A DNA stretch of 23,659 nt. It comes from a virus. Location: IMG/VR virus record IMGVR_UViG_3300031857_001414, positions 1 to 23,659 of that record, one strand, 5' to 3'. Shown piece after piece: positions 1 through 23,659 of this stretch. Each line of letters begins with the position of its first letter. Within the stretch, counting starts at the first letter, position 1. The notes under the pieces were generated by a model. That model searched no databases. It was not told the origin of the DNA and worked only from the letters and a program-made list of their open reading frames with translations. The position numbers were made by a program, and so were the translations under genes.

Positions 1-2515
1 CATCTACTAATTTAGCTATTTCACTTTCTATTTCAGCGTTTTTTTGCTCTATTTCTTTGTAAGATTCCTGTTCTTTTAGTTTCTCAGAGTATTCTAAAAT
101 TAAGTTTTTTGAGATTTGTATTTTCTCTTTTATAATATTTGCTTGGCTTTCTATATTGTCCAAGTTAGATTTTAGTCTTTCTGCTTCGGCTTTCTTGTCC
201 TTGTATTTTTTATATGTAGAATCAGCTATTTCTAGATTCTCCATATATTCTGCTACCTCATTTTTATTTTGTTTTAGTTTCTCTAGTTTATCAAGTAATT
301 CCGGTAGCTCTTTTTTAGCCTTTTCTCCATCTAATGCATACTTGTTATTTTTTACACAATACACACAGTTAGGGTCGTGTTCATAACCTTGTAGGTGTTC
401 TATTAATTTATTACTAGATTTTATTTCAGAGTCTGTTACTGCGATGTCTCTGTCAAAATCAGATATTTTTTTTCTTACTTCAACTAGATTAGAAGATACA
501 TCAACTCTTTCTCCCATGTCATCTAGTTCGGAGAGATTCGTTTTAAGGGCATTTCTAGCCTCTACAAACGACTTTCTCTTGTCTTCTAAGGATGAACTAA
601 GGGTAGCCTCATTTCTGCTCTCCTCGTCTATCTTTGTGGCATAATTTATAGATTGCTTAGGATAAGGTATAAGTTCTTTTCTTTTGTTTTCTATTTGTAC
701 GGAAAGGATATCAGAATTCTTTTTATTTAAATCCAGACTATCCTCTACTTGTGCTAGCTTAGACTTTATATCTATTATGCTATTTTCATACTCCGTTACA
801 GATTCGTTGTATTTCTGTTTTTGGTGGTTCTCAATTTCATATTTTAATTGTTTAAGATGTTCTTTGGATGTATCATTTAATTTCTCAAAGATGTCTATAT
901 CAAAATACTTGTACAATAAATCCTTTTTATCTTTTTGTGTCTTATCAATAAAATCAGATTTATTATGTTGGTCATACATTGTTATAAGCATGAAATTCTC
1001 ATAACTTCCTAGATATTTTCTAATGCTGTCATTTGTTTCATATCTTTGCTCTCCATTTAAAGAAGTTCCATCCTCTTTATAGAAATTAACGATAACTTTT
1101 ACTTTCCCGTCTTTACCTTTCTTACCATTACGTTCGATAAAATAAGACTCTCCTGCAACCGATAATTCTAATTTACACGAAAAGAAATCGCAAGATGTAT
1201 TCATAACTTCAGCGCCGCTACTTGTCTTACTACATTTATCAAAAATACAGTAAGTCATAGCATCTAATAGGGTAGACTTCCCGGAGGCGTTTGGTGAAAA
1301 TAATCCAACTAGTCCTCCTAATTCTCCTAAATTAAATACATTTCCCTCTCCGTAGGAAAACATATTAGAAAACTCAAATCGTAAAGGCTTCCATGTAACA
1401 CCTATAAATTCGGAAGGCTCATCTAATTCTAAGGAAGCTTTTTTATGTATATCTAGGAATTTGTCCGCTTGATACTCTTGTTTTAACTCGTTTTGAACAT
1501 ATCTCTCTAGCATTGAGTGTCTCCATTCAAAGTCTCTTATTATGTTCTCTTTGTCTAGTGATACTTCCCCTTTACCATTGTCTATAATAAATTTAGTTAC
1601 TTTTGGCTTTTTTATACGTAGAACATTATATTTCTTCTCTAATGCTAAACAAAAGGAGTCTATAAATTCTTGAGTACAATTTTCGGCGGTGATAGCTACA
1701 TTAAGATTATACGGTAAATCTCCAGGTATTTTCTCAGCTACTTTATCATTTTTCAATTTAAATGTATAATAGCCATTAGAAGATGCTATTTTAATGAACT
1801 CACTTGTTTTCTTATTTAAATCCCATTCTATAATTCCATGTGTTAAATCTTCTCCAAAGTTCTGTTGTATCAAACTAGATGGATAAGCTGCTGTTCTTTC
1901 TAAATTGAGATATTGATGTTTGTGAATGTCTCCCAATAAGATGTAATCATAGTCTGCATGATTTAATACATCTAAATAATTTCCTTCTAATAGATATCCG
2001 TATGCTGTTGCCGAGTTCTTTACCGGTCCATGATACATTAATATCTTTGTTTCTGCATCAAAGGATTTTGCGGGGATTACATTTTCAATCTTATCTTTGA
2101 CATGTAATAAACTAAATGCTATTTGTTCATATTTATACACATTTGTTTCATTCAAGAAATGTAATGTAGGTAGATTTAAACTGTTTATGATGGGAGTTAA
2201 TGCATCTAATCTTGTTTTATTATTTAGATTTAAGTCATGGTTTCCTAATATTACTATGGTAGGAAGCATGTTACATAATGTAGATAATAGATTGGATACT
2301 ACTGAGAATAATTCTGGAGACATGTTTGTTTTTGAATGTACGATATCCCCGCCCAAAAATATAATGGAATTGGGTGTCATTCTCTCCTCAATGATTTTAT
2401 ACAATTTCTCAAACACTTCTATATATTCTTCATGTCTTTGATAATTGTAAACATGAATATCTGAAATGTGAAAAATCTTATCCACTTTTCTTCCTGTGTC
2501 CTTTATTAGAATCAT
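1..2515 (-). CDS. Fused Mre11/SbcD nuclease - Rad50/SbcC ATPase (T4 gp47-gp46-like), 3' end beyond window
   Basis: One frame stays open from an ATG at 2515 to the left edge: 838 full codons plus one base. I read it by reverse-complementing the sequence and found no stop. The N-terminal part has the Mre11 metallophosphoesterase motifs in order: DIH (D19, H21), GGD with a following H near residues 57-61, GNHD (91-94), a YHG histidine near residue 159, and GDIHKH (195-200). After about residue 365 a Rad50-type ATPase begins, with Walker A GKST at 412-415, a long charged region consistent with a coiled coil, and a zinc hook C-V-Y-C at 717-720. All motifs are in the same frame. In T4, gp47 and gp46 are separate proteins forming a complex that resects DNA ends and feeds recombination-dependent replication. 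The return coil, Walker B and signature motif must lie outside the window. The start overlaps the primase stop as ATGA, suggesting translational coupling. Confidence 0.9.
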   Translation of the reverse strand, partial: MILIKDTGRKVDKIFHISDIHVYNYQRHEEYIEVFEKLYKIIEERMTPNSIIFLGGDIVHSKTNMSPELFSVVSNLLSTLCNMLPTIVILGNHDLNLNNKTRLDALTPIINSLNLPTLHFLNETNVYKYEQIAFSLLHVKDKIENVIPAKSFDAETKILMYHGPVKNSATAYGYLLEGNYLDVLNHADYDYILLGDIHKHQYLNLERTAAYPSSLIQQNFGEDLTHGIIEWDLNKKTSEFIKIASSNGYYTFKLKNDKVAEKIPGDLPYNLNVAITAENCTQEFIDSFCLALEKKYNVLRIKKPKVTKFIIDNGKGEVSLDKENIIRDFEWRHSMLERYVQNELKQEYQADKFLDIHKKASLELDEPSEFIGVTWKPLRFEFSNMFSYGEGNVFNLGELGGLVGLFSPNASGKSTLLDAMTYCIFDKCSKTSSGAEVMNTSCDFFSCKLELSVAGESYFIERNGKKGKDGKVKVIVNFYKEDGTSLNGEQRYETNDSIRKYLGSYENFMLITMYDQHNKSDFIDKTQKDKKDLLYKYFDIDIFEKLNDTSKEHLKQLKYEIENHQKQKYNESVTEYENSIIDIKSKLAQVEDSLDLNKKNSDILSVQIENKRKELIPYPKQSINYATKIDEESRNEATLSSSLEDKRKSFVEARNALKTNLSELDDMGERVDVSSNLVEVRKKISDFDRDIAVTDSEIKSSNKLIEHLQGYEHDPNCVYCVKNNKYALDGEKAKKELPELLDKLEKLKQNKNEVAEYMENLEIADSTYKKYKDKKAEAERLKSNLDNIESQANIIKEKIQISKNLILEYSEKLKEQESYKEIEQKNAEIESEIAKLVD

Positions 2516-3420
2516 AATAAATTTGTTATTGCTGAATACTCATTAATTTCAACTGCTCCTTCTATAGCATCCCATGTGTCATCATACCCTAAATCGCTAG
2601 GATCTTTTGTACCTAAGTCAACTAGCTTGGTAGGAATGCCAATGGCTCCTAATTCCAAACAATACTTTATAGCTTGTTTCTTTTTATCCGGGTCAATAGC
2701 AACATATACTAAAGGAGTTTCTTCCATGAGTAGTCTATGTTTTAACTTTTCTGATATGATGCTGCCCGTTAAATAAGTCACATTTCTTCTTACTGATACA
2801 CTGTCGAAAAAACCCTCTACGATAACTATTGGGAATTTAAAATCTAAGAAAAACTCATTGACTATAATATCATTTATCTTAACAGGAGCGCCTAAGTATT
2901 TATAAGGCGAAAGACCTGTGAAATCTCTGCCTTCAAAAAAATTAAGTGTGCCGTTCTTGTCATAGGAAGGTAGTATAATTCTGCCTGCGTACTTACCTGT
3001 TAGACAATATCCAACCTTATGTCTTACTATGTCCTGGTTTGTGAAAGAAGGCTTGAATCTCCTTAAAAAATTCAATACAGCTTTATTGGGTTCCTTATTC
3101 AATGATACATATTCATCGGGCAATTTCAATAAAGCAGTAGGAATGTCTATTTGAGTATCATCTTTCATTTGATAATACTCTAAAACATTTCTAAGTTGAT
3201 CAATTTGAGTCTTTGTGGCACCGCATTTGTAGAAAAGATTACTTACACTCCTACCTTTAGTTTCGCAAATCCAACAATGATACTTTTGATTAGTTAAATT
3301 TACACTTAACTTCTTTTTGTGGTGATTGCAGAAGGGACAATGAAATACAATGTCTGATTTACCCGCTGATTCCGAAGAACCTAGCACTTCCTCTAAAACC
3401 GATAATAATCTAAAACGCAT
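2512..3420 (-). CDS. DNA primase, zinc-ribbon plus Toprim (DnaG / T4 gp61-like)
   Basis: This 302-residue protein probably makes RNA primers for lagging-strand replication. The N-terminus has a zinc-binding pattern C28-x2-C31 and C49-x2-C52 with H48 beside it, typical of the CHC2-type zinc domain of DnaG primases. The middle has AGRIILPSYDKNG (145-157), resembling the primase catalytic core. A Toprim domain follows, with E202 in VEGFFD and the acidic pair in DPD (243-245), the expected metal-binding residues. Its length is close to that of T4 gp61 (about 340). The ATG at 3420 lies 6 bases after the stop of the resolvase gene, and its TGA overlaps the next start. There is no helicase domain, so it is a stand-alone primase rather than a T7 gp4-type fusion. 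The family call is strong; the exact phage lineage is not determined. Confidence 0.88.
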   Translation of the reverse strand: MRFRLLSVLEEVLGSSESAGKSDIVFHCPFCNHHKKKLSVNLTNQKYHCWICETKGRSVSNLFYKCGATKTQIDQLRNVLEYYQMKDDTQIDIPTALLKLPDEYVSLNKEPNKAVLNFLRRFKPSFTNQDIVRHKVGYCLTGKYAGRIILPSYDKNGTLNFFEGRDFTGLSPYKYLGAPVKINDIIVNEFFLDFKFPIVIVEGFFDSVSVRRNVTYLTGSIISEKLKHRLLMEETPLVYVAIDPDKKKQAIKYCLELGAIGIPTKLVDLGTKDPSDLGYDDTWDAIEGAVEINEYSAITNLL

Positions 3421-3426
3421 ATATAA

Positions 3427-3852
3427 TTATTTTTTCTCTTCAAACCATTGCTTAGGTATGGAATAAGCCGCCCATTTTATATTGTGTTTATTGCACCACT
3501 CGGCGTAAGTGGTTTTAGCTCCTTTTGAAATTCTTACATGAGGATCCTGAAATACAATCCTGATGTCTAAATGAGGATTACATGAAATAATATCCATCAT
3601 TTTTTTACGTTCTTCTAAAGTCCATCTTCCTTTAGCTTCTATAATAATATTATTGGGTAACTCGAAATCTGCTAAATAAGTTCTAGGAGTTTCGGGTTTT
3701 ATGTACTTAATAACTTTTTTCTCATACAAATCTTTAGGGTTTACTCCCAAAGAGCCTGATATTTGTAGAGCAATAGACTTTTCGAAATTAGATCTGTACC
3801 CTTCTTTCTGCGCTAGTCTAGTCTTAAATGAATTGTTAAAAAATCCTGCCAT
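3427..3852 (-). CDS. T7-type endonuclease I, Holliday-junction resolvase
   Basis: This 141-residue protein matches the layout of phage T7 endonuclease I (149 residues), which cuts four-way junctions and branched DNA. The active-site residues fit: E24, then D62 in YLADFELP, then E72-x-K74 in IIIEAKGRW, a PD-(D/E)xK-type nuclease core. Downstream come the family-typical stretches DIRIVFQDP, SKGAKTTYAEWC and a C-terminal IPKQWF. I chose the ATG at 3852, one base after the upstream TGA. A TTG at 3864 would add four residues and overlap the upstream gene, with no supporting feature. Next come the primase and the recombination nuclease fusion, so it likely works in recombination and DNA debranching before packaging. 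T4 itself uses the unrelated endonuclease VII (gp49) for this job. The catalytic call is confident. Confidence 0.9.
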   Translation of the reverse strand: MAGFFNNSFKTRLAQKEGYRSNFEKSIALQISGSLGVNPKDLYEKKVIKYIKPETPRTYLADFELPNNIIIEAKGRWTLEERKKMMDIISCNPHLDIRIVFQDPHVRISKGAKTTYAEWCNKHNIKWAAYSIPKQWFEEKK

Positions 3853-3853
3853 G

Positions 3854-5509
3854 TCAATAATCAAATTTTACAATAACATTTAAATCTACATCATCTCTTT
3901 TCTTTATTGCTTGTCCCATTTTACCTACTGCAATTAGCTCGTTATATTTGTTGTACAAGCCAATAGTAGTTATGTAAGGAGATAAAGAACCTGTGAAATC
4001 ATCCAAATACTCCGTACTCTTAACAGTCTTAGTAGAGGAAGGGTTCAATGTGAGATTAAAATCACCTCTTTTAATTCTGCATAACATTTCAAATTCATAC
4101 AAAGTTAAACTATTTTTATAATAAAGCAACCAATTGTTAGATAAAATTTCATGATATTTTTTATCCGGGCTTGTGATTACTAAATTACCTGTTCTATAAA
4201 ACACATTACCCACTCTACTTGTCTGGTAACATGAAATAGATGATGTATTATATAAGCTAGCTACATTCTGAGATGTTGCTGCTCTATTGTAAAATCTTAA
4301 TTCATCTATAAGTCCTGTATATCCATTTCTTCCATCAAAAGAAGATGCTCCTATCATTATATCACTTACATTGACAGTTTCATCTTTAACATCTGCTCTT
4401 GATGAATTTAATGTTCCATCCACATATAATTGAATGTTTGAACCTGTCTTAACTAAACATACATGATGGAAATTATTATCTAAAATGGAATTAGATGATG
4501 TCAATTGCAATGTAGAAAAACCATCCGATCTACTGAAAGATAATTTTCCCGGCTGTGAATGAGTGTGATTATGTACGGAAAAATCATACGGGTAATAATC
4601 TACTGGGTAATATTTGAAAGAGGATGATGAAAAAACATCGGTTACTACTAAATTACCTTTATTTACTCTTTTTAATCTTCCGAATTCTTCTCTATACAAT
4701 ATGGACTTCTTGTCAATTACTGTATTTTTATTGCTAGTTAATATGCTCTGAGATACTGGCGCTTTTAACCAAAAACTTATGGTGAAATTGTCTGCTGATT
4801 CAAAACTAACTGCATCAAAATTTTTAGTGTGAATATAACCGTCGCCATAGAATTCCGCAGCTAAACCTGTTCTCGTGCCGTTAATAGGAATACCACTTGA
4901 ATAAGCTACTTGATATGATTTTGATTTTTCTTGAGGCTCAATAACTTCACTCTCGTATCTTATAAACAATGTCTTTTTTCCTCCCCTACCATAAGTGTAA
5001 GCTTTGTGAGCATCTTGAAATCCCCAATAACCGCATAAATTATCTGTATTTAAAAAAGAACCTGTATTTATATTACTGTCATATAAATTATTGTATCCAT
5101 CATCTACTACATTTATATTATTGTTTAGTCCTTTTAAATATAGTGTATTCTCTTTAATCTTATCTCCAAAATTTAAAGATGGAATTGATATTAAACTAGC
5201 TGTTAAAAATAAATGTTTAGTTGTTCTATTTCTATCCCATCCCTCCAATGATGTTGTCCATGAAAATCCTTTATGAAAATACAAATGATTTAGTGATTTA
5301 TAAACAATGTATTTATAAGACCCGTCTGCATTTTTTGGATATGTAACATCTTTTGAAGAGCTCAAATATATAGGAGATTTATAGTATAAAGCTTGTTGAA
5401 CTTTATATCCATTCTTTGCATAACTTCCTGTTAAAATATAATATTCTTTATTTACTTCAAACGGGGTTATAGTAAAATCCTCACTTTTAACAGCTGAAAA
5501 TGTACTCAT
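3854..5509 (-). CDS. LamG-domain phage structural protein with shared C-terminal domain
   Basis: This 551-residue protein is probably a tail appendage or decoration protein. Residues about 215-425 look like a LamG/concanavalin-A-like jelly roll: AEFYGDGYIHT, NFTISFWLKAP, FHHVCLVKTG, IQLYVDGTLNS and YTGLIDELRFYNRA occur in the usual order. Such domains often bind glycans, so a receptor or host-surface role is plausible but inferred. The N-terminal 200 residues are of a type I associate with phage virion proteins (FGDKIKENTLYL, then DDGYNNLYD at 136-144). The last 90 or so residues contain CRIKRGDFNLTLNPS and then YITTIGLYNKYNELIAVGK, a segment also ending the two genes just upstream (7658-5511 and 8771-7674). 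The ATG at 5509 lies one base after the upstream TAA. There is no signal peptide or membrane segment. Confidence 0.75.
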   Translation of the reverse strand: MSTFSAVKSEDFTITPFEVNKEYYILTGSYAKNGYKVQQALYYKSPIYLSSSKDVTYPKNADGSYKYIVYKSLNHLYFHKGFSWTTSLEGWDRNRTTKHLFLTASLISIPSLNFGDKIKENTLYLKGLNNNINVVDDGYNNLYDSNINTGSFLNTDNLCGYWGFQDAHKAYTYGRGGKKTLFIRYESEVIEPQEKSKSYQVAYSSGIPINGTRTGLAAEFYGDGYIHTKNFDAVSFESADNFTISFWLKAPVSQSILTSNKNTVIDKKSILYREEFGRLKRVNKGNLVVTDVFSSSSFKYYPVDYYPYDFSVHNHTHSQPGKLSFSRSDGFSTLQLTSSNSILDNNFHHVCLVKTGSNIQLYVDGTLNSSRADVKDETVNVSDIMIGASSFDGRNGYTGLIDELRFYNRAATSQNVASLYNTSSISCYQTSRVGNVFYRTGNLVITSPDKKYHEILSNNWLLYYKNSLTLYEFEMLCRIKRGDFNLTLNPSSTKTVKSTEYLDDFTGSLSPYITTIGLYNKYNELIAVGKMGQAIKKRDDVDLNVIVKFDY

Positions 5510-5510
5510 A

Positions 5511-7658
5511 TTAATATTTAAGTCTTACCGTAAAAACTGATTCGTCTGTAAAATTCTTGATAATAGGTTTAGATAATTTTCCTACTGCTATCAATTCTTT
5601 ACTATCATTATATAATCCTATTGTTGTAATATAAACTTGAGGATTTACAGAAAAATCTTCTTTTATAGAACCATTTTCTTCCGTCAAGTATTTAGTTAGT
5701 TTTTTACCTTCTTCTGAATTAGGGTCTAAGGGAAGCGATAAATCGTTTTCATTAGTTTCCGGAAGAGTATTGTATGTAAAGAAACTTGTATTGTTAGAGT
5801 AATTGAATTCTTTATTATGCAATCTGATAAAATAATAATCATTATACTCTCTAATAAGTCTTCTAGCTTTCATTCCTAAATAATCTCCGCTTACATCTTG
5901 TAGTGTTCCCGAGCCTGATATAGATTTAAACAGTTTGTGAGCATTTTGTCCATTTATTTCCGAATCTTTAGTTGTAGCAAAGGAGGCTGATAAATCTAAT
6001 TTATTCCCGTCTAAGATAACTACGCCTAATGATGGGAATAATTTACCATAATATTTAGGAAATTGGGAATTGTACACTCCGCTTTCAATACTCCCTGATA
6101 CTATGTTGTAAAATACTCCAGAATTTAAGTAATCCGGATTGGTGTTAATCTTAGAGTCATCTATTAATCTTAGTACTTTATTATTTCCTGCTAATCTGAC
6201 ATTTGAACCTGTATGAGTAGCAGTAGTACCTCCGCCTGATAAATACGCAGATCCTGATAAATGAGCTATATTTATTTCAATAACTCCCGCATCTATTCTA
6301 TCTTTTAATCTCTTTGATTGATAGTTTATTACATAGATACTATCAGTTGGAGTGCCTGTTAAATTAAATTTACCTTCTGATTTTTCTAAAATTATATTTC
6401 TATATTGTCCGTAAACAGCTTTACTTGGAGTGATATTTATTTTACCCCCCTCGTCAAATGATCCTGACCCTCCACTGTGCCCGTATGCGATACTGAATTG
6501 AATGGAAGATGTTGAAGATATTTTTGGGTTTTCATCATATATGTGAGTATAGTAATTAGAAACAGAATTAGATGTACTTCCTGTAAAAAATGTTTTTAAA
6601 TTTCTAATGTTATTAGAAAATAGTCCTTCTGTAACATCTACTATATACTTTCTTTTATCTATATCTTGAATCTCTTTTAACCAGTATAATTCCGGCTTAT
6701 ATTTACCTATGTATCTACCAATAGCTTTTACTGTAGTACCTTCGGGTACGTTTACAGTAATATTTTCAGGAGTTTTATATATGATTCTGTCATAGTCAAA
6801 ATCACTAAAAGAAACGGTATTATTTCCTGGAGAAACTGGAATTACAAAGTCTTTATTTCCTTTATTAGCTCCATTTATAAAAATATCAGGTAATTTTATT
6901 TCATTCGGAGGAGATGGGTTAAAAAAAACAGATACGTCTAATTGAGTAGGGGGTGGAGGAGGTGGAGGAGCGATAGAAGGGAATCCGGTACCTGTTTCAG
7001 GATCAGGTCCTGGTGTGCCGTAATATTGAAAAAAGGGTGTTAAATCTAATCCTATTATCGCAAAATTAGTTCGGTTACTAGACCAGAAAGGCTCAGTAAT
7101 AGTAGCAGTAAAAGTAGAACCTTGCTGTATTGGTTTGGTTTTCAAATCAGAACCAAGGTGGTATGAATTAAAATTGAACTGACTAAATACCATATCAGAA
7201 TAATTCCAGAAACCTTCATTACTAACATTAGCAGGATTAGGGGGAATAAATCCAAAATACATATCTCCAGAAAAAACATCTCCTGGTTTAGTTATAAATA
7301 AACCAGTATCAAATGTTTGTTCTATCTTACCAAGTATGTCACCCCCCGGTCCAGGAACTTGTGGACTAAATGTCGGATTAGTTATTTTAAAAGTTAGGGG
7401 CTTTCCATTAAAATTTATTGTAATTGGTGGAAATGTAGAGAAGTCTTCAAAAATAGCATTCCTATCATCTCTACGGGGCATAGATACAGAATACTTAAAA
7501 TATAATTTTTTAGGATTTGATGGTATAGTTTCTGTCTTAAACTTCTGGTAAAGTAGTTCTAAGGTTGGATCAGTAATTCGATAATTAAATCCATTCTTTG
7601 AGAGAATATAGTCTGATAGTTCATCTGATATCCTATATGTATCTAATGTTTGATCCAT
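5511..7658 (-). CDS. Paralogous phage structural protein with added N-terminal domains and poly-Pro linker
   Basis: This 715-residue protein has a C-terminal part (about 339-715) that aligns along its length with the 365-residue protein encoded just upstream. Shared blocks include QFSIAYG, DEGG, YGQY, SIYVIN, EIN-AHLSGS, THTGSNV, RLIDDSKI, SGS-ESGVYN and the terminal YITTIGLYNDSKELIAVGK segment. The N-terminal 330 residues have no counterpart there. They comprise a domain of about 230 residues, seven prolines at 231-237, and a small beta-rich domain (about 238-330) resembling Ig-like or carbohydrate-binding modules. This suggests duplication followed by gain of new N-terminal domains, perhaps for a different receptor or partner. 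The ATG at 7658 lies 15 bases after the upstream stop, with TATAAATA two bases before it. The exact role in the virion is unknown; a tail or baseplate appendage is the best guess. Confidence 0.7.
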   Translation of the reverse strand: MDQTLDTYRISDELSDYILSKNGFNYRITDPTLELLYQKFKTETIPSNPKKLYFKYSVSMPRRDDRNAIFEDFSTFPPITINFNGKPLTFKITNPTFSPQVPGPGGDILGKIEQTFDTGLFITKPGDVFSGDMYFGFIPPNPANVSNEGFWNYSDMVFSQFNFNSYHLGSDLKTKPIQQGSTFTATITEPFWSSNRTNFAIIGLDLTPFFQYYGTPGPDPETGTGFPSIAPPPPPPPTQLDVSVFFNPSPPNEIKLPDIFINGANKGNKDFVIPVSPGNNTVSFSDFDYDRIIYKTPENITVNVPEGTTVKAIGRYIGKYKPELYWLKEIQDIDKRKYIVDVTEGLFSNNIRNLKTFFTGSTSNSVSNYYTHIYDENPKISSTSSIQFSIAYGHSGGSGSFDEGGKINITPSKAVYGQYRNIILEKSEGKFNLTGTPTDSIYVINYQSKRLKDRIDAGVIEINIAHLSGSAYLSGGGTTATHTGSNVRLAGNNKVLRLIDDSKINTNPDYLNSGVFYNIVSGSIESGVYNSQFPKYYGKLFPSLGVVILDGNKLDLSASFATTKDSEINGQNAHKLFKSISGSGTLQDVSGDYLGMKARRLIREYNDYYFIRLHNKEFNYSNNTSFFTYNTLPETNENDLSLPLDPNSEEGKKLTKYLTEENGSIKEDFSVNPQVYITTIGLYNDSKELIAVGKLSKPIIKNFTDESVFTVRLKY

Positions 7659-8786: not shown

Positions 8787-9470
8787 TTATTCTGTTATTC
8801 CACTTCCAGGAGTTGTTCCGGCAGTAATTCTATTTACGGTTATACTAATGCTTACTCTTCCTCCCGTTTCATTACCTGTTATAGATAATGTAGCTTTTCT
8901 TTGATTTAAAGTTGACCCCTTTGCTTTAAGTGTAAAAGATAATCCAGTAACACTAACAGCTTGAGAAGCCTCCATTTCAGAAATAGCTCTAGGAGTAGAT
9001 GAGGCGGTGTCTTGATTGTTATTTTGAGCAGGAGTTGGAGTCACTCCTACGAAAGATGCAACATCACTATCAGATAAAGTAGCGGTGTAACCAAAAGTAG
9101 TATTACCTCCTTCAAAGTTTATAGTTCTAGGAGAAATTGTAATTTCTTCTCCGTTAGTTAAAGTTACAGCTGTTTGACCTACAGAAATTATAGGAATTCT
9201 AACAGTTCTTTTAGGCAGAGTGACGAGTTTATATTTCATCATCTGAGTTTCATCTACCACTGCTTCGGTTAGAGGCATATTTTCGATGGTTATTCCATAA
9301 TATGCTGTACCTAGTGGATGATCTGTATTCCATAAAGAATAGTCTACTTCATCGTCTCCTAAGGCAAAGTGAGTAATTTGAAACTCATTCCTACCTCTAG
9401 CAAGTAATTCTCTACCTCTTCTTGTGAGGATAGCATCTACTGTTATTTGATTATTATTTAAATATCCCAT
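8787..9470 (-). CDS. Phage structural protein with conserved N-terminus and Ig-like tail
   Basis: This 227-residue protein opens with MGYLNNNQITVDAILTRRG, then RGRNEFQITHFALGDDEVDYSLW. That pattern is familiar from small virion proteins of T4-like phages, where the first 100 residues are conserved. After residue 100 it becomes Thr/Ser/Ile-rich and beta-strand-like (TLTNGEEITISPRTINFEGG, then a Pro/Asn/Ser linker near 143-160 and ATLSITGNETGGRVSISI near the end), consistent with one or two Ig-like or BACON-like surface modules. This part is likely the exposed, fast-evolving portion. The gene lies between the 1419-residue baseplate-type protein and the family of paralogous appendage proteins. 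The gap before its start is 41 bases, the longest in the window, and holds a candidate promoter. The precise role is unknown. Confidence 0.65.
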   Translation of the reverse strand: MGYLNNNQITVDAILTRRGRELLARGRNEFQITHFALGDDEVDYSLWNTDHPLGTAYYGITIENMPLTEAVVDETQMMKYKLVTLPKRTVRIPIISVGQTAVTLTNGEEITISPRTINFEGGNTTFGYTATLSDSDVASFVGVTPTPAQNNNQDTASSTPRAISEMEASQAVSVTGLSFTLKAKGSTLNQRKATLSITGNETGGRVSISITVNRITAGTTPGSGITE

Positions 9471-9482
9471 TTTAAAATTAGT

Positions 9483-9495
9483 TTTATAATAAATA
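9483..9495 (-). promoter_or_regulatory. Candidate late promoter or AT-rich start signal (13-mer, copy 1)
   Basis: On the minus strand this reads TATTTATTATAAA. The identical 13-mer lies at 21577-21589 before another gene start, and both sit in the only two intergenic gaps longer than 30 bases. TATAAA resembles the T4 late promoter core TATAAATA. In an AT-rich genome chance matches occur, so this is tentative. Confidence 0.3.
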
Positions 9496-9511
9496 CTTTA
9501 AATTTTTATTT

Positions 9512-12500
9512 TTATACCACTATTTGATTAGCGCTAACTTCTCTAAATTCTACAACCGGCCCTCCGTCTATGGTTTCTGTAGTGTCTACATTAAAATCTA
9601 GTCCAGTTAATTTACATCCTGTATATCTTAATCTATTAGATACGGAATCCTCAATGTATTGATAATTAACAGAATGTAACGAAGATGAATAATATTTTTT
9701 CAAGCTCATAGATACAGCTATAGATAAATCTTTTTTATAAAGTGAATCAAAATTAGAAGATATACTACTAGAATAATGATATATAACTTTTTTATAGTTA
9801 GGATTTATCTTTTCTGATTCAATATAAGATTGAGTGACATTGTAAGTTTTTCTATAAATACTACCTTGATTATTCACAAAGTAATCATTTTTATATAAAT
9901 ACTCTTGTAATTGTTTTTTAGTAAATGTAGAATTAAAATTGTTATAACTTGATGATATTACATAATTGTAATTTACATTAGTATTATAAAAATCATCAAT
10001 ATTAAAATTATTTACCTTCCCCACTATATTTTCTACTGTATTTATGTTAGATTCGTAAGAGACATTAGATGATATAACTGAAATATTAGCATCGTAATAA
10101 TTTATTTTTCTAGTTCTAGAAATTTTATCTTTATTAATTCCATTTCTCTTTACTTTATATACCATAACTTCATCATAGGATCCACTTAAAAAGTAAAACT
10201 CTCCTAATAACGTATTATTATTTGTAATAGTTGCGATGCTTTCATTTATTTTTCCGGTATTATCAACTTTGTATAAGGATTGAAACTCTGAATTCATGTT
10301 TTCTACATCCAATAAGCCTATGTGATTGTATATATTAATCTCACTTCCTATTTCTTGAAGTGTATTATCAAAATTCAATGATTGATTATCTAAAGAAGAT
10401 TCTATGAAATTATAGTAATACGGATTTTTTATAGACCCTGATAATTTTTGATATGTTATTTCAGTATTTATAGGATTTTGCAAAGATGACGTATACTTAA
10501 TATACTCAAAATTCAAAACAGGCGGATTAGATATAGAAGAAGTGTACTTTTCAATAGACATTTCTACCGGCATTAGATAGTCTATAGATCCTGTGTATAA
10601 AATATATTCGCCTGTTTGAGAATCCGTTTTTATTATTGTTTTTTCGTATTGGGGATTGGTTAAACTAGGATTTTTTCTAGCTATTCTAGTCCTTTCTAGT
10701 AAGTTCTCCTCTAACAATACCCCAGCAATTAAATTCGCCCTAGCCGGAACTAATTGAGTGACTTGTTGAAAAAAGGAATAATCATACAAAGAAAATATTT
10801 CTATATATTTATTATAATTATTTCTGTTTTTATACTTTTTCCAATAATTTTCTCTGTTTACTCTCAAGGAAGAATAGGTGTCTTTGGATAAATCATTAGG
10901 GTCTCCTATTAAATTATCTAAATTAACATTTCCAAATTGATTAGATATGTCTCTATTCACTTGATCTGTAGGACTAAAAACAATCGCTAATTTATTTGAA
11001 TCTACAGGAGTGGTATCGAATGTATTTATTTGCACTCTTTTTTCTGCTGATAAATTATTTACTCTAATTGTTTCCTCTATTCTTATTTTATCACTTTTTG
11101 GTATATTAGCCCCTATGGTAGGAGAATAAGAATAATAAATTTCAGTGTAAGGTTTGTATTGATTTTCCTGTGACCCTGAGAAGCCTATAAAACTAGCGGT
11201 AGTATACAAGCTTTCTACTCTGTTAGGATGGCTAGAAGATACGTATATATAAGTTGAATGATCATATCTTAAAGAGTCCACACCTAAAGGATAATATCTG
11301 TTAAGTGTATCAAAAGAAGACGAGTATGAATCGCCATGATAAGCGGCAGGATTCAACGTATGCTCCTCAAATACTTTAGATGAGTAAAAATCGCTATAAT
11401 CCTTGTAAGACTGTAAGAAGCCCGTGAACCTAGATGATGTAGAATACGAAAATTGACTTCCTGTAGCTCCGCCTAATATTAAACTATGTGGGGATGATAA
11501 AGAACTTGTGGATCCCCAAGTAAATGATATATCCTCATTAGAATTCAAAGACATAGATCCAGAAAAACTAATCCAATTTTCAAATTGACCACTAGATTTT
11601 TTCCATTCTATATTTATAGATCCTGTTTTATTTGTATCATTTATATTTTTATCTGTAAATATTCTAACATTCCAAACATCTCCATCAAAAAATGGATAAT
11701 AATTTGACTTTACTGTATTAACAGATAATGAAGATGTAGAGTACGTTGCACTAGATGCTCCTTTATATCTTAAATAGCCATAAGAGTAACTTCCACTGAA
11801 AGACGATGTGGATATAGACCGATAACTAACCAATTCTAAATTATTATATACTTTATTTGAATTTTTAGAATCTACTATAGACCATAAACTCATGCTTAAA
11901 CTAGCGGACGTATTTGATTTGAATCTAAATTCCGATACTCTAGGTGCTGATGATTCCGACTCATTAGGGGGTATTCTTTTGCCCCAAGGTATTTTAACAA
12001 ATTGATTTCCGTCAAATTTTAATAAATATTGATATCTGTAGCTTTTGTGAACGGGAGAATATTTAGGTGGTGCAGCTCCTCCGTACTCCTTTATACTTAT
12101 TAGAGTTTGAGGTATTCCATATATGGATAATAATGATTTTATACTTCTTTCAGTACCTTTAGTTTTTAACAAATACGGTATATTATTTACAACTCTTCTC
12201 CATATTTGATGAGTAAGGTTCTCATGTGCCTGTGACGCTAATAGTCCTGTATTTGAAAAACTACCAGTAGAATCACTTCCTATTTTATATAGCCATAAGT
12301 CACTTAGTTGATACCCATTATTAACCTCCCATCCTAATGATTTTGCATAAGTTTTTAGAAGTTCATTAGGTATTCCTCTTTTTGGGTGTTCGTCTCTTCT
12401 GTGTATAGATGTTAATTCTTTTATAAATGCATATAAATTGTCAAAATGCTCTCCAATCATATTTAAAAATACTAAATACTCCGAATTATCGGGGTCATTT

Positions 12501-13771
12501 ACAATATGTCCCGGAGTAGCTTCGTATAAAGAATTATAGTTTCTTATGTCAAAATTATAGGCTTTAGATAAAGAAGAAGAATACCAATAATTGTAAGTAG
12601 CTGTAGTGATATGGTAATTTATATATTTACCACTATTTATATATTTTGGAGTAGGCGTTAAGCTTCCCGTAATATCATAAGAAAATAAACTTCCTGTAGA
12701 GTAATATAAATAATTTTCAAAATCATCAAAACTATTTTTTAATCTATGTGCTCTTTTTAAAATTTTATCATAATCTAAGGATGGGTAAGAAGAACTAGAT
12801 GCATTAGAATTTATTATAGAATTACTTTGGCTAGTATAAAACTCAATTAATTGTAATTTGTAATTATAATTTTTTATTCTCTCTTGAGCCGATCCATAAA
12901 ATACAAAATTTGAAAAATTTGAATAATCAATGTTTAAAGGAACGGAAGCTGATGAAGATATAACTTTGTTTATTATATTATTAGATGTTTCTATATCAGC
13001 GTCCAATAGACTATTCCATGTAGAATAATTAGTAGACTCTCCACTTGTCTCACTTAGTAAATAATTTGGAGTTAAAATTCTAGGCTGGCTTACTATTTCT
13101 GGAGAGGATACAGTGAAAGAATCAAAATAATCCTCCGCCGCTTTGAAACAAATATGGCACATCATACCAGTATTTATTCCTATAGGAGTGTTTAGTAATT
13201 TTATATATATAACATACTCATTATCACAATCTACTTTTATATTTACTATTGTGTATATTTTATTTTCCCCTAAATTTATTACTATGTTGTTCAAATAACC
13301 TACGGTACGTAAAAAAGCAACTCTATCTCTAAAAGATTTTAATTTGTCTATTATTTCCGGGTTTTCAATAAGATATTTAGGTCTTATAGCTAATTTTAAT
13401 TCTAGTTCATCCGGACTTATCTCTTGTATATAGAAGTATTGATTATTAATATTACCAAAGATATTATATAAAAAATTAAAACAAATCTTGTGTGTTCCTT
13501 CATAAATGTCAGAATCAAAAAATAATTTACAAACATCTAAATTAATGTCATCAAAAGAAGAATCGAAATCATTTTTAAATCCATATATTGATTTAGTTAA
13601 CTCGAATTTAGAATCATAAACATGAATATCTAAAGAACATGGACTTTTTAATTCATCAATAATTGCTTTTGATATATCTAAACTCATAAAAGATTCATAA
13701 TTAAATGATACTCCTTCTATTAATGAACTGGATTCTTTTATTTTATCTTTATTTACGAATCTATCTATCAT
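9512..13771 (-). CDS. Giant baseplate/tail structural protein with LamG-like insertion
   Basis: At 1419 residues this is the largest protein fully inside the window. The N-terminal 310 residues end in IDYSNFSNFVFYGSAQERI (281-299), followed by NYKLQLIE. Residues 525-565 carry RRVVNNIPYLLKTKGTERS, then LLSIYGIPQTLISIKEYGG, a motif I associate with large tail or baseplate proteins of T4-like phages. A LamG-like segment follows from about 583 (YLLKFDGNQFVKIPW) to about 850, including LSMSLWSIVD and SLILGGATGSQFS. Near residue 1010 is LVPARANLIAGVLLEENLLE, again typical of these proteins. The remaining 380 residues are rich in Ser, Tyr and Asn. By position, after gp6-like and before appendage genes, it could fill the role of T4 gp7 or gp10, but I see no clear homology to either. 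TATAAA lies two bases before the ATG at 13771, and AAGGAA is 14 bases upstream. Confidence 0.7.
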   Translation of the reverse strand: MIDRFVNKDKIKESSSLIEGVSFNYESFMSLDISKAIIDELKSPCSLDIHVYDSKFELTKSIYGFKNDFDSSFDDINLDVCKLFFDSDIYEGTHKICFNFLYNIFGNINNQYFYIQEISPDELELKLAIRPKYLIENPEIIDKLKSFRDRVAFLRTVGYLNNIVINLGENKIYTIVNIKVDCDNEYVIYIKLLNTPIGINTGMMCHICFKAAEDYFDSFTVSSPEIVSQPRILTPNYLLSETSGESTNYSTWNSLLDADIETSNNIINKVISSSASVPLNIDYSNFSNFVFYGSAQERIKNYNYKLQLIEFYTSQSNSIINSNASSSSYPSLDYDKILKRAHRLKNSFDDFENYLYYSTGSLFSYDITGSLTPTPKYINSGKYINYHITTATYNYWYSSSLSKAYNFDIRNYNSLYEATPGHIVNDPDNSEYLVFLNMIGEHFDNLYAFIKELTSIHRRDEHPKRGIPNELLKTYAKSLGWEVNNGYQLSDLWLYKIGSDSTGSFSNTGLLASQAHENLTHQIWRRVVNNIPYLLKTKGTERSIKSLLSIYGIPQTLISIKEYGGAAPPKYSPVHKSYRYQYLLKFDGNQFVKIPWGKRIPPNESESSAPRVSEFRFKSNTSASLSMSLWSIVDSKNSNKVYNNLELVSYRSISTSSFSGSYSYGYLRYKGASSATYSTSSLSVNTVKSNYYPFFDGDVWNVRIFTDKNINDTNKTGSINIEWKKSSGQFENWISFSGSMSLNSNEDISFTWGSTSSLSSPHSLILGGATGSQFSYSTSSRFTGFLQSYKDYSDFYSSKVFEEHTLNPAAYHGDSYSSSFDTLNRYYPLGVDSLRYDHSTYIYVSSSHPNRVESLYTTASFIGFSGSQENQYKPYTEIYYSYSPTIGANIPKSDKIRIEETIRVNNLSAEKRVQINTFDTTPVDSNKLAIVFSPTDQVNRDISNQFGNVNLDNLIGDPNDLSKDTYSSLRVNRENYWKKYKNRNNYNKYIEIFSLYDYSFFQQVTQLVPARANLIAGVLLEENLLERTRIARKNPSLTNPQYEKTIIKTDSQTGEYILYTGSIDYLMPVEMSIEKYTSSISNPPVLNFEYIKYTSSLQNPINTEITYQKLSGSIKNPYYYNFIESSLDNQSLNFDNTLQEIGSEINIYNHIGLLDVENMNSEFQSLYKVDNTGKINESIATITNNNTLLGEFYFLSGSYDEVMVYKVKRNGINKDKISRTRKINYYDANISVISSNVSYESNINTVENIVGKVNNFNIDDFYNTNVNYNYVISSSYNNFNSTFTKKQLQEYLYKNDYFVNNQGSIYRKTYNVTQSYIESEKINPNYKKVIYHYSSSISSNFDSLYKKDLSIAVSMSLKKYYSSSLHSVNYQYIEDSVSNRLRYTGCKLTGLDFNVDTTETIDGGPVVEFREVSANQIVV

Positions 13772-13789: not shown

Positions 13790-16700
13790 TTAAGAATTTG
13801 TGGAAATATTAGGAAAAGATTCGAAACTAGTAGTATTCCCTGAGGTTCCATAATTTATATTTTGTGTTCCGCTACCTTCTGTGTCAGTTACGCTAAAAGG
13901 GCAACTGAATACTCCATTTATAATAGTTATAGGTGTAGTAGATATAGAGGATATGCTAGATTGTGCTATAGATGTATTGGAACCTCTGTACTGATATGTT
14001 CTTTCGTCGTTAGTTTTTACAATTTGATTCATATTAAGTTTCTCCGTTGTATAAATACTACCACCTGGTGTCTTGAAATCGCAAGGATCTAATCTATACA
14101 CAGTTACATTATTAGGTGATACGCAATCATATAAATTTGTTTTTATCAATCCTCTAGTTCTTTCTATATATAACACATTAGTAAGTTGATAACCCTGTGT
14201 TGAGTCACTAATACCTTTGTATTGATATTTTGCATTGGTTCCTGCTACTAAGTATATTTGATTTATAGAATCAGGCTCAATGCTAGTATTAATCATAGAT
14301 TTTCCATCTATAGAAAGACCGTCGCATGCGATTAATATCCAATATTTTATTTCTGGACAATCTTTTTCGTTTACGAGTAGTTCTAGGTTATTTGAAGAAT
14401 CTACTTGAACGGAATTTAAAGGAGGAGCTAAATCATTCCATGTATAATATTCATTTGGGTTATTTTTTAATCTATATCTTTGTTTTGGAATAATAGGTTT
14501 TATCTTAGTGTATAAAACGGGAGAATCGTAAGAAGTACAACCTGTTAATGTCCAATACGTATCAGTAGTTGTACCACCTCCACCGGATTCCCCTCCACCT
14601 TCTGTATCTGAGCAAATAGGATAATCCTTTTCTAAAACAGGCTTTTTACTGTCTATAATTTGATTATCTTTTAAATCAGGATTATTTTTCTTTAATTGTG
14701 TTCTGAAAGCTGTATTTTTACTTTCATAATTAGGTATTGCATAATCAAATAAATCTTCAACCCCATTAGGTGTGCAATATGCAAAATATATAGGACAAGC
14801 TAAAACACTATCATCCCTTTCCACATTCACAAAGTTGCTTGGTTTACTAGTTAATTCAACCGCTGTAGTACTTACTGTAGTAAAGTACAAACTTTTATAT
14901 ATGTTCTTATAAAATGATTTACTAGACAAAGGCGCTATGTCTGTATAATATTCCTGATCGTACCAACATTGTTTTATTTTCCAGTATTTAGTCTTAACAC
15001 CTCCTGTACTTCCACCTCCTCCAGGACTTCCGCCGCCAGTACCCGTTTCACCTCCAATGTCTCCCCCTTCTACATCAGAACAATCCGGATATTCGTCTAT
15101 TGGTATAGGAGTTTTACTAGCTACTATGTGTTTATCTTTTATTGGTCCATATTTACTAAATAAATCCGACCGCTTAAATAAAATTCTCTCCTTTAAATCT
15201 GTATTAGTATAATTATCATAATTTGTAATAGATTCTTGAGAAGTTTCAATACCATCCTTAGTACAATAAGCGTAATATACTTGACATCCTTTTATGTTAG
15301 AATCAGTTTCTATATCTACTTCAATAAAATTCTCTGGCTTATAATCTAACTCTATAGCATTTAAATTTTTTATTATGTAATAATCGTATTGGTTATATCT
15401 ACCATCTAATTCTGATTTATAAACAGAGGATAAAGAGGTAGGTTTTTTGTCCGTATAAAAAATTCTACCATCATGACATCTATATATAACCCAATAATTA
15501 GTCTTTTTAGACTCTCCACCTCCTGTACTTCCACCTCCTCCAGTACTTCCACCGCCGGTTTCCTCCCCTTTACAGGAAGGTAACTCCGAATTACTAAACA
15601 CAGAAAAAGAGAATTTTAATGTACCACTTTTTATATTTGAGTATTTTACTCTTAAATCACTTTCAGCCTTTGTTTTTGCGTTAGATCTATCTGATTCATT
15701 ATAAACTATACTATTTTGATATAGAACATCGTTTTGACAGAATACATAATATAAAGTAAACGTATTACCACATTTAGGGTATGAGCTTTCAGGTATTATA
15801 TTTTTAGATATAATAGCGTTTGGATAAGTTTGTTTTATAGATGTTTCAAGTTTCTTATATTCTATTTCATTTTCTATATTGGTGTAAGATTTTTCAACTA
15901 TTTTATTATCGACACAATAAACTGTATATAAACTACTCCAATTATTTACAGGAGTAGTTATACATTCCTTTTTAAGTTGATTTAATAATTCAGTTTCAAT
16001 TTCTTTATCACTTATTATATATTTAAAAGAATTAATTGCAGACGGATATCCAATTTCTTTTATTATGTCGTCCTCTAATTTTTTTGTCTTTTTATCTAAA
16101 TCAGCTTGGTTTTCATAAGAAAATCTGACAATTCTATTAATTATTTGCGAATTATTTAAACAGAGTGAAACATAAGCTGTAAATACTGATTTTCCTGCGG
16201 GTAATTCTTGACATATAAAAGCTTTTTTTCTATCTTCCGTTGGCTCTACTCCTATATAATATTCTACTAAAGAAGATTTTTTGTAAATATCTAATTGATT
16301 TATTTTTTTCTTTACCTCTTTTTCCATATCTTCCGGGCTTGTATTTGCGGGGAAGACAATTTTGTCCATAAAACCAGTATAAGTTCCCGTTGTAGTTTTT
16401 GCGCAATATAAAATATAAGAGGAAGGCCCGATAACAGGAGGTGTGCCTCCACCTCCTCCTGGAGGGGTACCACCACCTGCTTCTTCGCCACCTCCACCAC
16501 TTCCCGGAGGGGTACCACCACCGGTCTCTGTTGGGGGTTTAACTTCTTCTACTGATCCGGATTCACAACAAGCATTTACTACATTTGTTATGGAAGGAGC
16601 CGTTGCGGGAGGCGGGTTTACTACGATAGGGTCTACAGGATCTACAATCAGCTGTGTTTTCTTTCTAATCTCGGGCGTCCAAAGATTAGATAAATCTATA

Positions 16701-17626
16701 CAATTTCCGTTATTATCAGGATTTATAAAATAATAAGTATAATCTTCTAATTTTCTAACACTTCCTATGTTTTCATTTGGTTCTAAAGGATTTGGTCTAT
16801 CTCTAGAATCTTCGGAACTAAAAGTATTGGATGTTGATTCTGGATTTTTAGTATTACCTGCTATTTTAACAAAAGTTCCTAATGGGTAATTTATTAATTC
16901 AGAGAAATTTGAACTTTCTATAGTTACTACGTTATTATATGTAATATTTCTTTCATACATCATAACTTCTAATGTCTCTCCATTGGGTATAACGCAGATA
17001 GAAACATTAGTAAGTCCCTCATTAACAACATCAGTAAAATAAGAAAAATTAGTATCTATAACTTTTGATAATATTGTGTCGGATACTATTGTTTTTTCAG
17101 GTCTTATAAAATAATAGCCAGGGTCTACAGATAAAGTACTCCCTTCTAATTTATAATTTATTGGAACATATTTTATACCTTTTAGATTTACTTTTAATTT
17201 TGGTTTGTTTGCTTTATTTATATCTTCGGTGGAGTATCTGTTTTTATTTTGTCCTTCTATTTCGGGAATTCTTTCATTAATTGTCCCAAACATTATTTTT
17301 TCTACATTTCCTTCATATTTTCGGATTACTTTATATTTTATGTAATCTTTACTTGTATCATTTGATTGATTCTCATTAGGGGGAATAGTTACAGATATAT
17401 CTAATTTATTATTTACATTTAAGGCATCTTCAATTTTTATTAATTCTTTGGATTCAGATGTCTTTAATCTTCCGGACATGTATTTTCCATATTCGTCTAT
17501 ATTGTATGGCCCTTTATAGATATCTCCATTTAAGTATGTAAATTCGCCTGTAGATATGTTAGGTCCACTATTTAAACTATTAGGGTCTGATAGTCTATGT
17601 AAATTTGTATTAGTATTCTCTTCCAC
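13790..17626 (-). CDS. Modular two-cysteine repeat protein, probable tail fibre or adhesin
   Basis: This 1278-residue protein has no family I can name. Residues 1-340 are unique. From 369 it is a chain of modules joined by Gly/Ser/Thr/Pro linkers (369-399, 687-705, 853-876, 1009-1019). Module A runs from an aromatic-rich strand ending Y-x-x-x-C or Y-x-C to a closing Cys, most copies with (Y/L)P-x-C. Its Cys pairs are 408/472, 489/555, 571/619, 630/685, 788/849 and 951/1005. Module B begins YW-x4-C or YR-x3-C and ends in another Cys: 717/781, 887/944, 1030/1090, 1101/1168 and 1182/1242. The order is A-A-A-A, B-A, B-A, B-B-B. The pattern suggests an extended fibre with a paired cysteine in each module, either disulfide after release or metal-binding. 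The start is GTG at 17626, overlapping the upstream TAG by one base; the next ATG is at codon 50. A host-binding role is inferred from position and architecture. Confidence 0.7.
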   Translation of the reverse strand: MEENTNTNLHRLSDPNSLNSGPNISTGEFTYLNGDIYKGPYNIDEYGKYMSGRLKTSESKELIKIEDALNVNNKLDISVTIPPNENQSNDTSKDYIKYKVIRKYEGNVEKIMFGTINERIPEIEGQNKNRYSTEDINKANKPKLKVNLKGIKYVPINYKLEGSTLSVDPGYYFIRPEKTIVSDTILSKVIDTNFSYFTDVVNEGLTNVSICVIPNGETLEVMMYERNITYNNVVTIESSNFSELINYPLGTFVKIAGNTKNPESTSNTFSSEDSRDRPNPLEPNENIGSVRKLEDYTYYFINPDNNGNCIDLSNLWTPEIRKKTQLIVDPVDPIVVNPPPATAPSITNVVNACCESGSVEEVKPPTETGGGTPPGSGGGGEEAGGGTPPGGGGGTPPVIGPSSYILYCAKTTTGTYTGFMDKIVFPANTSPEDMEKEVKKKINQLDIYKKSSLVEYYIGVEPTEDRKKAFICQELPAGKSVFTAYVSLCLNNSQIINRIVRFSYENQADLDKKTKKLEDDIIKEIGYPSAINSFKYIISDKEIETELLNQLKKECITTPVNNWSSLYTVYCVDNKIVEKSYTNIENEIEYKKLETSIKQTYPNAIISKNIIPESSYPKCGNTFTLYYVFCQNDVLYQNSIVYNESDRSNAKTKAESDLRVKYSNIKSGTLKFSFSVFSNSELPSCKGEETGGGSTGGGGSTGGGESKKTNYWVIYRCHDGRIFYTDKKPTSLSSVYKSELDGRYNQYDYYIIKNLNAIELDYKPENFIEVDIETDSNIKGCQVYYAYCTKDGIETSQESITNYDNYTNTDLKERILFKRSDLFSKYGPIKDKHIVASKTPIPIDEYPDCSDVEGGDIGGETGTGGGSPGGGGSTGGVKTKYWKIKQCWYDQEYYTDIAPLSSKSFYKNIYKSLYFTTVSTTAVELTSKPSNFVNVERDDSVLACPIYFAYCTPNGVEDLFDYAIPNYESKNTAFRTQLKKNNPDLKDNQIIDSKKPVLEKDYPICSDTEGGGESGGGGTTTDTYWTLTGCTSYDSPVLYTKIKPIIPKQRYRLKNNPNEYYTWNDLAPPLNSVQVDSSNNLELLVNEKDCPEIKYWILIACDGLSIDGKSMINTSIEPDSINQIYLVAGTNAKYQYKGISDSTQGYQLTNVLYIERTRGLIKTNLYDCVSPNNVTVYRLDPCDFKTPGGSIYTTEKLNMNQIVKTNDERTYQYRGSNTSIAQSSISSISTTPITIINGVFSCPFSVTDTEGSGTQNINYGTSGNTTSFESFPNISTNS
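15001..15037. repeat. 37-base direct repeat in Gly-linker coding region, copy 1
   Basis: This segment matches 15520-15556 at 35 of 37 positions by eye (mismatches at the 25th and 32nd bases). It encodes the Gly/Ser/Thr-rich linker before the second B module of the 1278-residue protein. The copies are about 520 bases apart, so recombination between them would delete or duplicate one linker-B-A unit, if the intervening length keeps the frame. Confidence 0.8.
15520..15556. repeat. 37-base direct repeat in Gly-linker coding region, copy 2
   Basis: Partner of 15001-15037. It encodes the linker before the first B module. The start-to-start distance is 519 bases, a multiple of three, so unequal recombination between the copies would keep the reading frame. 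Confidence 0.8.
16461..16522. repeat. 17-base direct repeat pair in Gly/Pro linker
   Basis: The 17-mer ggaggggtaccaccacc occurs at 16461-16477 and again at 16506-16522, a 45-base period that keeps the frame. It encodes GGGTPPG-type linker sequence ahead of the first A module. Confidence 0.85.
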
Positions 17627-21608: not shown

Positions 21609-23659
21609 CTAAAAGTTAACTTCAACTATTTTATTTAAATAAACTAACTCATGTGATAAATGAGTGTAATTATTATCATATAAAGTTACTTCTAGTTGTT
21701 TTTTTATACAAGTTGAATCTACTAAAGTTTTACTTTCTACTAACATAGACTCTTCTAAAAATAGCGAATTGGTATTTAATAATTTTTCCAAATCTATATT
21801 ATCCTTTAACTTACTTCCTATTATATACCATCCAGGCTTACAATTTTTTTGTATAACCAATATTAAATATACAATATCAGACATAACTGCAATAGTTCTT
21901 TTGCTTTTTAAAATAGATACTATTTTATATAAATGTCCATAACATTTACCATCAGGGTATTGCACGTCTAAGGGTATAGGTATAAGGTCTAGAGATAAGG
22001 AAGGCCCTCCAGGCCCTCCAGGTCCGCCGGGCCCACCGGGACCACCTGGGCCACCTGGGGTTCCCGGAGCAGCATTAGGTAGTGTAGAATCAGATCCTCT
22101 AGGACCACCGGGAGACCCAGGCCCACCGGGACCTCCTGGTCCACCGGGACCACCGGGACCACCGGGACCATCAGGAAATCCGGGGGTGCCTTCATTTCCG
22201 GACGTACCTTCGCTTGATGGTGTTCCTGGTAAGTCAACAGGAGAGCCATCAGGTTCTTCTTTAGATCCTCCATTCTCCGGGATTGATTCAGTTTCTAGAT
22301 TTCCCGCTTTTGGAGGTACTCCGGGTTCTTTAATTAGTAATTCAGGTGTTTTTTTATTAATTGTCAAGCCAGGTACCGATACTCCAGGATACCCAATAGA
22401 TCCGATACCAGATGTCTCCCCTCCCGGAAATTCAGGACTAGTGGTAACTCCTCCACCTACACTTCCGGGTATGCCAGGTATATTGTTTGTAAAGCCTGTA
22501 GGGGCTACTCGAGATAATCCATCAGTTCCTAACTTAAAATTAGAAGGTAACGCGGGAGGTTGTGGAAAACTTTGAGAACACCCCCCACCCCAAACACCTC
22601 TAGTGGGATTTATTGTATATCTAGGTTTTAATGATATTATACTAGGTAGCCGTGGAGAAACTAAAGAAGGTCCTCCAAGGGGTGATGTGGTTATACCTCC
22701 TGGGCCGGCTAATGCTTGTAATTCGCTATGTAATCCTAAAACAAAATCTACAAGGTCATCGAAATCTACATCATGTTTATTAGTGGTAAGTCTTATTCTT
22801 GAAGCAGATAAGTATATTGTTTTTTTTGCAATCAACATCATATCATCTTTCTTTGCTTGCATTACAATTCTATCTGCATTTGTAGCCGATTGAGCTTTAT
22901 TAAAACTTGGAATACTAGACAAAGGAGAAGGACATGCTCTAACCGAAACAAATCTTGATAAGGCTTGATCAGAAGTCCAATAAGTAGTAGAGAAATCATT
23001 AGCTGCATCTTCTATGGCGTAAGATAATGAATTTTTTATTTCTCTATTTGGTATATCTTTTACTTCGTTAGGTAATGGCTTACTTGGTCCTATAGGTTTA
23101 TTAGCTACTATAGTTATTGGATTTCCCGCTTTCCCAGATTTCCATGTCGGTTGATTTTCATGTTGTGGATGAGGACCCGAGCCAATGCCTAGTCTTATAG
23201 ATGAGCCACCTCTACCGGTAAAAGTAGTGTCTCCTTCAAAGGGTTGTATGAAGTTAGCAGTATAAGGTCTTTTAGGGAAGGTGTTTCCGGGAGTAACAAA
23301 CGGAGGTGCAGGTTTATTGTCAGATGATTTAGATCTATTAGAAGCGTGTGGTATTTGATTTATTACCGAATCATTAGTTGAATTAATTGGTAAAGGAATG
23401 TAGTATAGTACTTTATCTAAATTTGGAGCATCTGTACCATCAAATCCTGTTAGCTCAAAAACAACTACATGTTCTCCTCGTAATGGTATATTTCTAAAGT
23501 TAGTGAATAAAGGTCTAGCATAGTGAGCGCGAACATTCCCTATTAAAGAATTTGGGTGCAACTTAATTTTTACAGAGCCTAATGGAAGTATTCTACCTTT
23601 ATCGTCTTTTTGGTTTTTACTATATGCCTTAGAGGTCTCTATCACTTCCGCCGATACTA
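21609..23659 (-). CDS. gp5-like baseplate spike/hub protein with collagen-like segment, 5' end beyond window
   Basis: The frame is open through the right edge, so the start lies outside; the GTG at 23645 is probably internal (V-S-A-E precede it in frame). Numbering from that GTG, residues 1-90 resemble the OB-fold of T4 gp5-type hub proteins ([13 protein letters not shown], then [12 protein letters not shown]). Residues 133-180 ([20 protein letters not shown], then [10 protein letters not shown]) and 258-290 ([19 protein letters not shown], then [12 protein letters not shown]) fit the spike beta-helix entry. A Gly/Pro/Ser-rich region spans 315-490, collagen-like Gly-x-y repeats span 493-548, and a folded C-terminal domain of about 125 residues ends the protein. 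No T4-type lysozyme domain is visible. The protein probably forms the trimeric membrane-piercing spike of the tail. Confidence 0.78.
22002..22169 (-). repeat. Collagen-like Gly-Gly-Pro coding repeat
   Basis: About 56 codons (residues 493-548 of the spike) are mostly Gly-Pro-Gly triplets in two blocks separated by a short [13 protein letters not shown]-type break. Gly falls at every third position, as in a collagen triple helix. The DNA is strongly GC-rich against the AT-rich background and includes the exact 9-base tandem ccaccggga (more than three copies at 22141-22170), so copy number could vary by slippage without loss of frame. Confidence 0.9.

Follow-up and report, generated by a model that had tools for sequence, protein, structure and literature searches.

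In the virus studied here, an aquatic contractile-tailed phage, the Mre11 nuclease and Rad50 ATPase very probably form one polypeptide, a single-chain Mre11-Rad50 (SbcDC) complex that would dimerize, cut DNA and process ends for recombination-dependent replication. The DNA analyzed, referred to as the window, is the entire IMG/VR record IMGVR_UViG_3300031857_001414 (23,659 nt), for which a longer contig does not exist. An earlier note, made from the sequence alone, had claimed that Mre11 and Rad50 are joined in one open frame of 838 codons. This is confirmed by the minus-strand ORF at 2-2515 and by the Pfam matches, which place a Metallophos domain (8.5e-12, residues 13-199) and an AAA_23 domain (5.7e-7, residues 383-587) in the same chain. 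The parts of the gene and its two upstream neighbors are located as follows.

2..2515, minus strand: fused Mre11-Rad50 gene; ATG start, 838 codons without a stop, about 1043 codons in full, 3' end beyond the contig edge.
1919..2479, minus strand: Mre11/SbcD metallophosphoesterase domain (residues 13-199); PF00149, similar to the Mre11 folds 3thn/4nzv (TMt ~0.6).
1610..1777, minus strand: region resembling the Mre11 capping domain (residues 247-302) in the AlphaFold model; the profile aligns to residues 203-370 of T. maritima Mre11 (3tho_B).
1433..1531, minus strand: helix-loop-helix (residues 329-361) with which Mre11 probably binds Rad50; helices at 329-344 and 350-361 in the model.
1397..1432, minus strand: predicted linker between the halves (residues 362-373, 12 aa; AlphaFold model).
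896..1396, minus strand: Rad50 ATPase N-lobe (residues 374-540; PF13476), including Q-loop residue Q516, invariant in 46 relatives.
1274..1297, minus strand: Walker A motif SPNASGKS (residues 407-414), with G412-K413-S414-T415.
389..895, minus strand: predicted ascending coiled coil (residues 541-709; AlphaFold model).
356..367, minus strand: zinc hook C717-V-Y-C720, both Cys invariant in 46 relatives.
2..343, minus strand: predicted descending coiled coil, ending at the contig edge (AlphaFold model).
2512..3420, minus strand: DnaG-type primase-like protein, upstream of the fused gene; phrog_47 (7.4e-27), with a weak Pfam match to Zn_ribbon_DnaG below the cut-off.
3427..3864, minus strand: T7-type endonuclease I (Holliday-junction resolvase family; PF05367, 3.2e-34), just upstream in the same direction.

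The nuclease domain of the window protein carries D19xH21, G56-D57-IV-H60, G91-N92-H93-D94, H162-G163 and G195-D196-I-H198, and these residues are invariant or almost so across 46 relatives. Of the Mre11/SbcD metal ligands (DxH, GD, GNHD, H and GHxH), only the first His of GHxH is not present; D196 stands in its place and may act as a ligand. Walker A and the CxxC zinc hook lie exactly where they had been placed, at codons 412-415 and 717-720, respectively.

The C-lobe of the ATPase (signature, Walker B, D-loop and H-loop) falls off the window contig and was read from full-length relatives. A scan of IMG/VR returned 18 loci with the same gene, and near-identical IMG/VR contigs show 98-77% identity to the window gene. 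In these near relatives, the complete gene occupies one frame of 1043 codons (L005, L007-L015 and L017) or 1044 codons (L018), so that the resulting 1043-1044 aa agree with the predicted total of 1000-1050 residues. Searching for Walker B and signature motifs after the hook had been proposed as a check; complete relatives contain both (FFFIDEGFG and SGMERF), followed by a D-loop (LDSDN) and an H-loop (ISHLD). Of the Rad50 ATPase set, the window thus supplies Walker A and Q516 and the relatives the remaining motifs; the signature is SGME, not SGGE.

The fused form extends far beyond these loci. A profile scan with the whole fusion detected at least 563 relatives, and 65 contigs at ~35% identity among the best 80 of these are all fused, none with an internal stop; where complete, their proteins measure 1046-1063 aa, and two lose the 3' end. 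Since the first profile query was the whole fusion, a second scan was run with the Rad50 half. Mre11 motifs were found upstream in the same frame in 77 of its best 80 matches, and one more has 392 in-frame upstream residues outside the motif filter, giving 78/80 fused; the other two end at a contig edge, and a separate Rad50 gene occurs in none of the 80. As both scans comprise the best 80 matches each, distant members lie outside them, and the two sets share a few contigs. Among the ~145 viral contigs matched, the fusion is present in all except the contig-edge cases, and none carries the halves as separate genes. A cellular origin of the fused gene was considered and rejected: only seven of ~85,000 cellular genomes match, every one of them a MAG, on contigs of ~4-20 kb that could be phage, and no plasmid match was found.

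These surveys bear directly on the concern that an assembly or sequencing error deleted a stop and that the halves are really separate genes. The window gene ends at a contig edge, and T4 and most cultured relatives do have separate genes. However, the fusion recurs in more than 140 further contigs from different metagenomes and in the cultured Microcystis phage Mel-JY01, which answers both the worry about sequencing error and the proposal to look for other fused homologs. Moreover, dN/dS between the window and six relatives is 0.015-0.021 over codons 300-400, lower than in the nuclease domain (0.03-0.10) or the coiled coil. Purifying selection at the junction is therefore strong (dN/dS ~0.02), and this, together with the independent contigs, refutes a lost stop, its probability being practically nil; the in-frame Mre11-Rad50 fusion is genuine. 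Synonymous divergence from L017 is uneven along the gene, with dS of ~0.3 for codons 1-300, 2.7 for codons 300-400 and 0.6 for the coiled coil, and the unevenness of the window gene against L017 and L011 suggests mosaic recombination between relatives.

A separate Rad50 might additionally be made from the fused gene by internal initiation or proteolysis. In-frame ATG codons are available at 335 and 385, and in the window as well as in L005 and L017 the first comes after a GGAGA stretch. Yet ATG335 is missing from L018, M385 is an invariant residue right after the first conserved Rad50 strand, and a conserved start preceded by a ribosome-binding site is lacking at the domain boundary (362-373), which makes such a second product improbable.

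Modeling of the fold, another check that had been suggested, was performed with AlphaFold on the L017 protein and a 46-sequence alignment (pLDDT 81, pTM 0.46). The model places the nuclease core, the cap, a loose stretch (305-323), the helix pair, the 12-residue link and the first Rad50 strand (from residue 374) in this order, and continues into a Rad50 head with coiled-coil arms (541-709 and 725-895) on either side of the zinc hook. The antiparallel coiled coil with a CxxC hook characteristic of Rad50/SbcC is thus predicted to be present. Parts of the model match Mre11 (3thn, 4nzv; TMt ~0.6) and Rad50 (3av0, TM-score by target 0.76), and sequence profiles match SbcC (8e-36) and T. maritima Mre11 (5e-10) in the PDB. 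The individual parts are accordingly modeled with Mre11 and Rad50 folds; given the low pTM, the domain arrangement is tentative, and the helix-loop-helix may bind in cis or in trans. For T. maritima Mre11 and Rad50, 9-12 residues were estimated to be enough to bridge the termini (Yoshida, Claverie and Ogata, 2011; PMC3175470). The modeled retention of the cap and helix-loop-helix region together with a linker of 12 aa fits the fusions of that study (~9-12 or more).

The one departure from a canonical nuclease site concerns a metal ligand. D196 occupies the metal-2 ligand position of GHxH and is invariant in 46 family sequences, as is H60 (GDxxH in place of GDxxD). D19, D57, N92, H93, H162 and H198 are invariant as well, and H21 nearly so. 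Given D196, the activity or metal preference of the nuclease may differ from that of canonical Mre11. The replacement of the metal-2 His in every member could also be taken to mean that the nuclease half is degenerate and chiefly structural, leaving Rad50 as the working part. This is unlikely, as the remaining catalytic residues are retained and the nuclease domain has the low dN/dS given above. Asp is capable of ligating Mn, so D196 could still serve. Mimivirus R555 contains both changes, a His in GDxxD and an Asp for His206 (PMC3175470), and because R555 shares the same substitution, D196 is considered a family trait and not decay. GDxxH is also found in T. maritima Mre11, and only the Asp is distinctive of the R555 type.

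Whether such a fusion had been described in phages was left as a question in the earlier note, and the answer is yes. Fusions of Mre11 and Rad50 were reported for R555 and twelve other proteins, including one of Bacillus phage 0305phi8-36, with plasmids, bacteria and eukaryotes among the sources described (Yoshida, Claverie and Ogata, 2011). In the same study, R555 homologs turned up in large numbers in the viral fractions of aquatic samples, where their neighbors included primases (SPO1 gp21.95, Twort, A511) and T7-type endonucleases, and some of them were argued to be phage-borne. Beyond this paper, searches of the literature outside subscription journals yielded only a review of jumbo phages, in which SbcC and SbcD figure as partners. 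As the fusion, its aquatic homologs, their neighbors and the same two motif changes of R555 have all been reported, the window protein belongs to a described class and the fusion principle is not new. What is added are complete genes, the tailed-phage context and evidence for fusion as the rule in the lineage of the window phage.

Like the R555-type proteins, the window protein shows the order Mre11-cap-HLH-linker-Rad50, GDxxH and the Asp for His206; with their aquatic homologs it has in common the aquatic viral contigs and the neighboring SPO1/Twort-type primase and T7-type endonuclease. In contrast, it measures 1043 aa compared with 1351 aa for R555, and complete genes are found here in contractile-tailed phages. 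In BFVD, the whole model is matched best by fusion-length proteins of mimivirus-like giant viruses (Tupanvirus, 25% identity), and it is these fold matches that suggest a kinship with R555 itself; Tenacibaculum phages also appear among the matches, with proteins 1310 and 1318 aa long. Among cultured phages, the closest relative is WWT39521.1 of Mel-JY01, a 1066-aa fusion with 35% identity that is annotated only as 'AAA domain containing protein'. Mel-JY01 also has a primase nearby and a related baseplate gene (49% identity), but it encodes a DNA methylase downstream where the window lineage has a collagen-like fiber, and endonuclease I is absent. The fusion is further carried by uncultured huge phages of 484 kb and 735 kb. 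The copy of the 484-kb phage (LR756508.1, L003:4953-9175) is interrupted after GDIHKRQ by an insert of ~1 kb with a zinc-finger ORF (5674-6588) that is possibly homing-endonuclease-like; an Rfam intron search of this copy gave no convincing match. The 735-kb phage (LR756501.1, L004) carries two further AAA_23 and three further Metallophos genes besides the fused one, unlike the smaller phages.

Most other detectable phages, e.g. Herelleviridae and T4-like phages, have two separate genes. T4 gp47/gp46, SPO1 gp21.3/gp21.9 and SbcD/SbcC of Staphylococcus and Listeria Herelleviridae contain the same domains in nuclease-then-ATPase order and a CxxC hook, and Herelleviridae share the nearby primase with the window phage. 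Their two genes, however, are divided by small ORFs or spacers, and their signature reads SxGE instead of SGME. In an unrooted tree with long branches, 23 fused and 6 separate forms lie on opposite sides of one 100/100 branch. E. coli SbcCD and T. maritima Mre11/Rad50 (6s6v, 3qg5, 3tho) have the same folds and catalytic motifs but consist of two polypeptides with canonical GHxH and SGGE. The cultured Flavobacterium phage immuto (Immutovirus immuto, NC_055915.1, L095) shares a baseplate gene (42% identity) and the primase with the window phage; it shows no AAA_23/Rad50 match, and the gene after its primase encodes an exonuclease.

In the window, the primase gene ends in a TGA that overlaps the start codon of its fused neighbor (ATGA), and most other genes encode tail and baseplate proteins (gp25, gp6-like). 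Endonuclease I is present in 6/6 larger IMG/VR relatives. The fused gene is the single AAA_23 gene in each of these six contigs and in Mel-JY01, so no second, separate Rad50 was found in these viruses, and a RecA-family gene occurs in 8/9 records checked. Two tail-region proteins of the window (21609-23657 and 13790-17626) contain long Pro/Gly-Gly low-complexity repeats; no family was found for the former in Pfam or PHROG, and an Rfam search of the window gave no match. Directly downstream of the fused gene, L017 encodes a collagen-like fiber with a C-terminal S74 chaperone (9136-13743), which includes a Hint/intein-like domain (aa ~978-1110) with a Cys start and an HN end followed by Met. Judged by its residues, the normal splicing nucleophile of this domain seems to be absent. 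A scan of 11 relatives, several of them incomplete, for HN[C/S/T] found nothing; this pattern would miss an HN-Met end as well.

In the proposed mechanism, two fused chains would dimerize via the nuclease and the ATP-clamped heads to form an M2R2 complex with a built-in 1:1 ratio; this fixed ratio and the tethering of the nuclease to the ATPase are inferred from the fusion. The enzyme would capture phage DNA ends and resect them, leaving 3' single strands with which UvsX/RecA could carry out strand invasion in recombination-dependent replication, as with T4 gp46/47, and the adjoining primase and endonuclease I would act later. A gp46/47-like role is inferred from family knowledge and is supported by the gene content, with the fused gene as the only Rad50 in most of the larger records checked and a RecA-family gene in 8/9.

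As a one-chain Mre11-Rad50, the protein represents a convenient object for structural and mechanistic work, with Mel-JY01 as a cultured phage source. The finding also helps with a point left open in 2011, the identity of the viruses behind the abundant aquatic R555-like fusions (PMC3175470), because the window gene adjoins baseplate genes and complete relatives co-occur with UvsX/RecA and endonuclease I. A broader picture can be drawn only tentatively, and it may well not hold in full: a large uncultured lineage of contractile-tailed phages might have fixed a single-chain Mre11-Rad50 with the His-to-Asp ligand change as its usual end-processing enzyme. This form would derive from one old fusion, which would also be the source of the R555 genes of giant viruses, and, acting by itself as a homodimer, would differ in its metal use or in the specificity of the nuclease.
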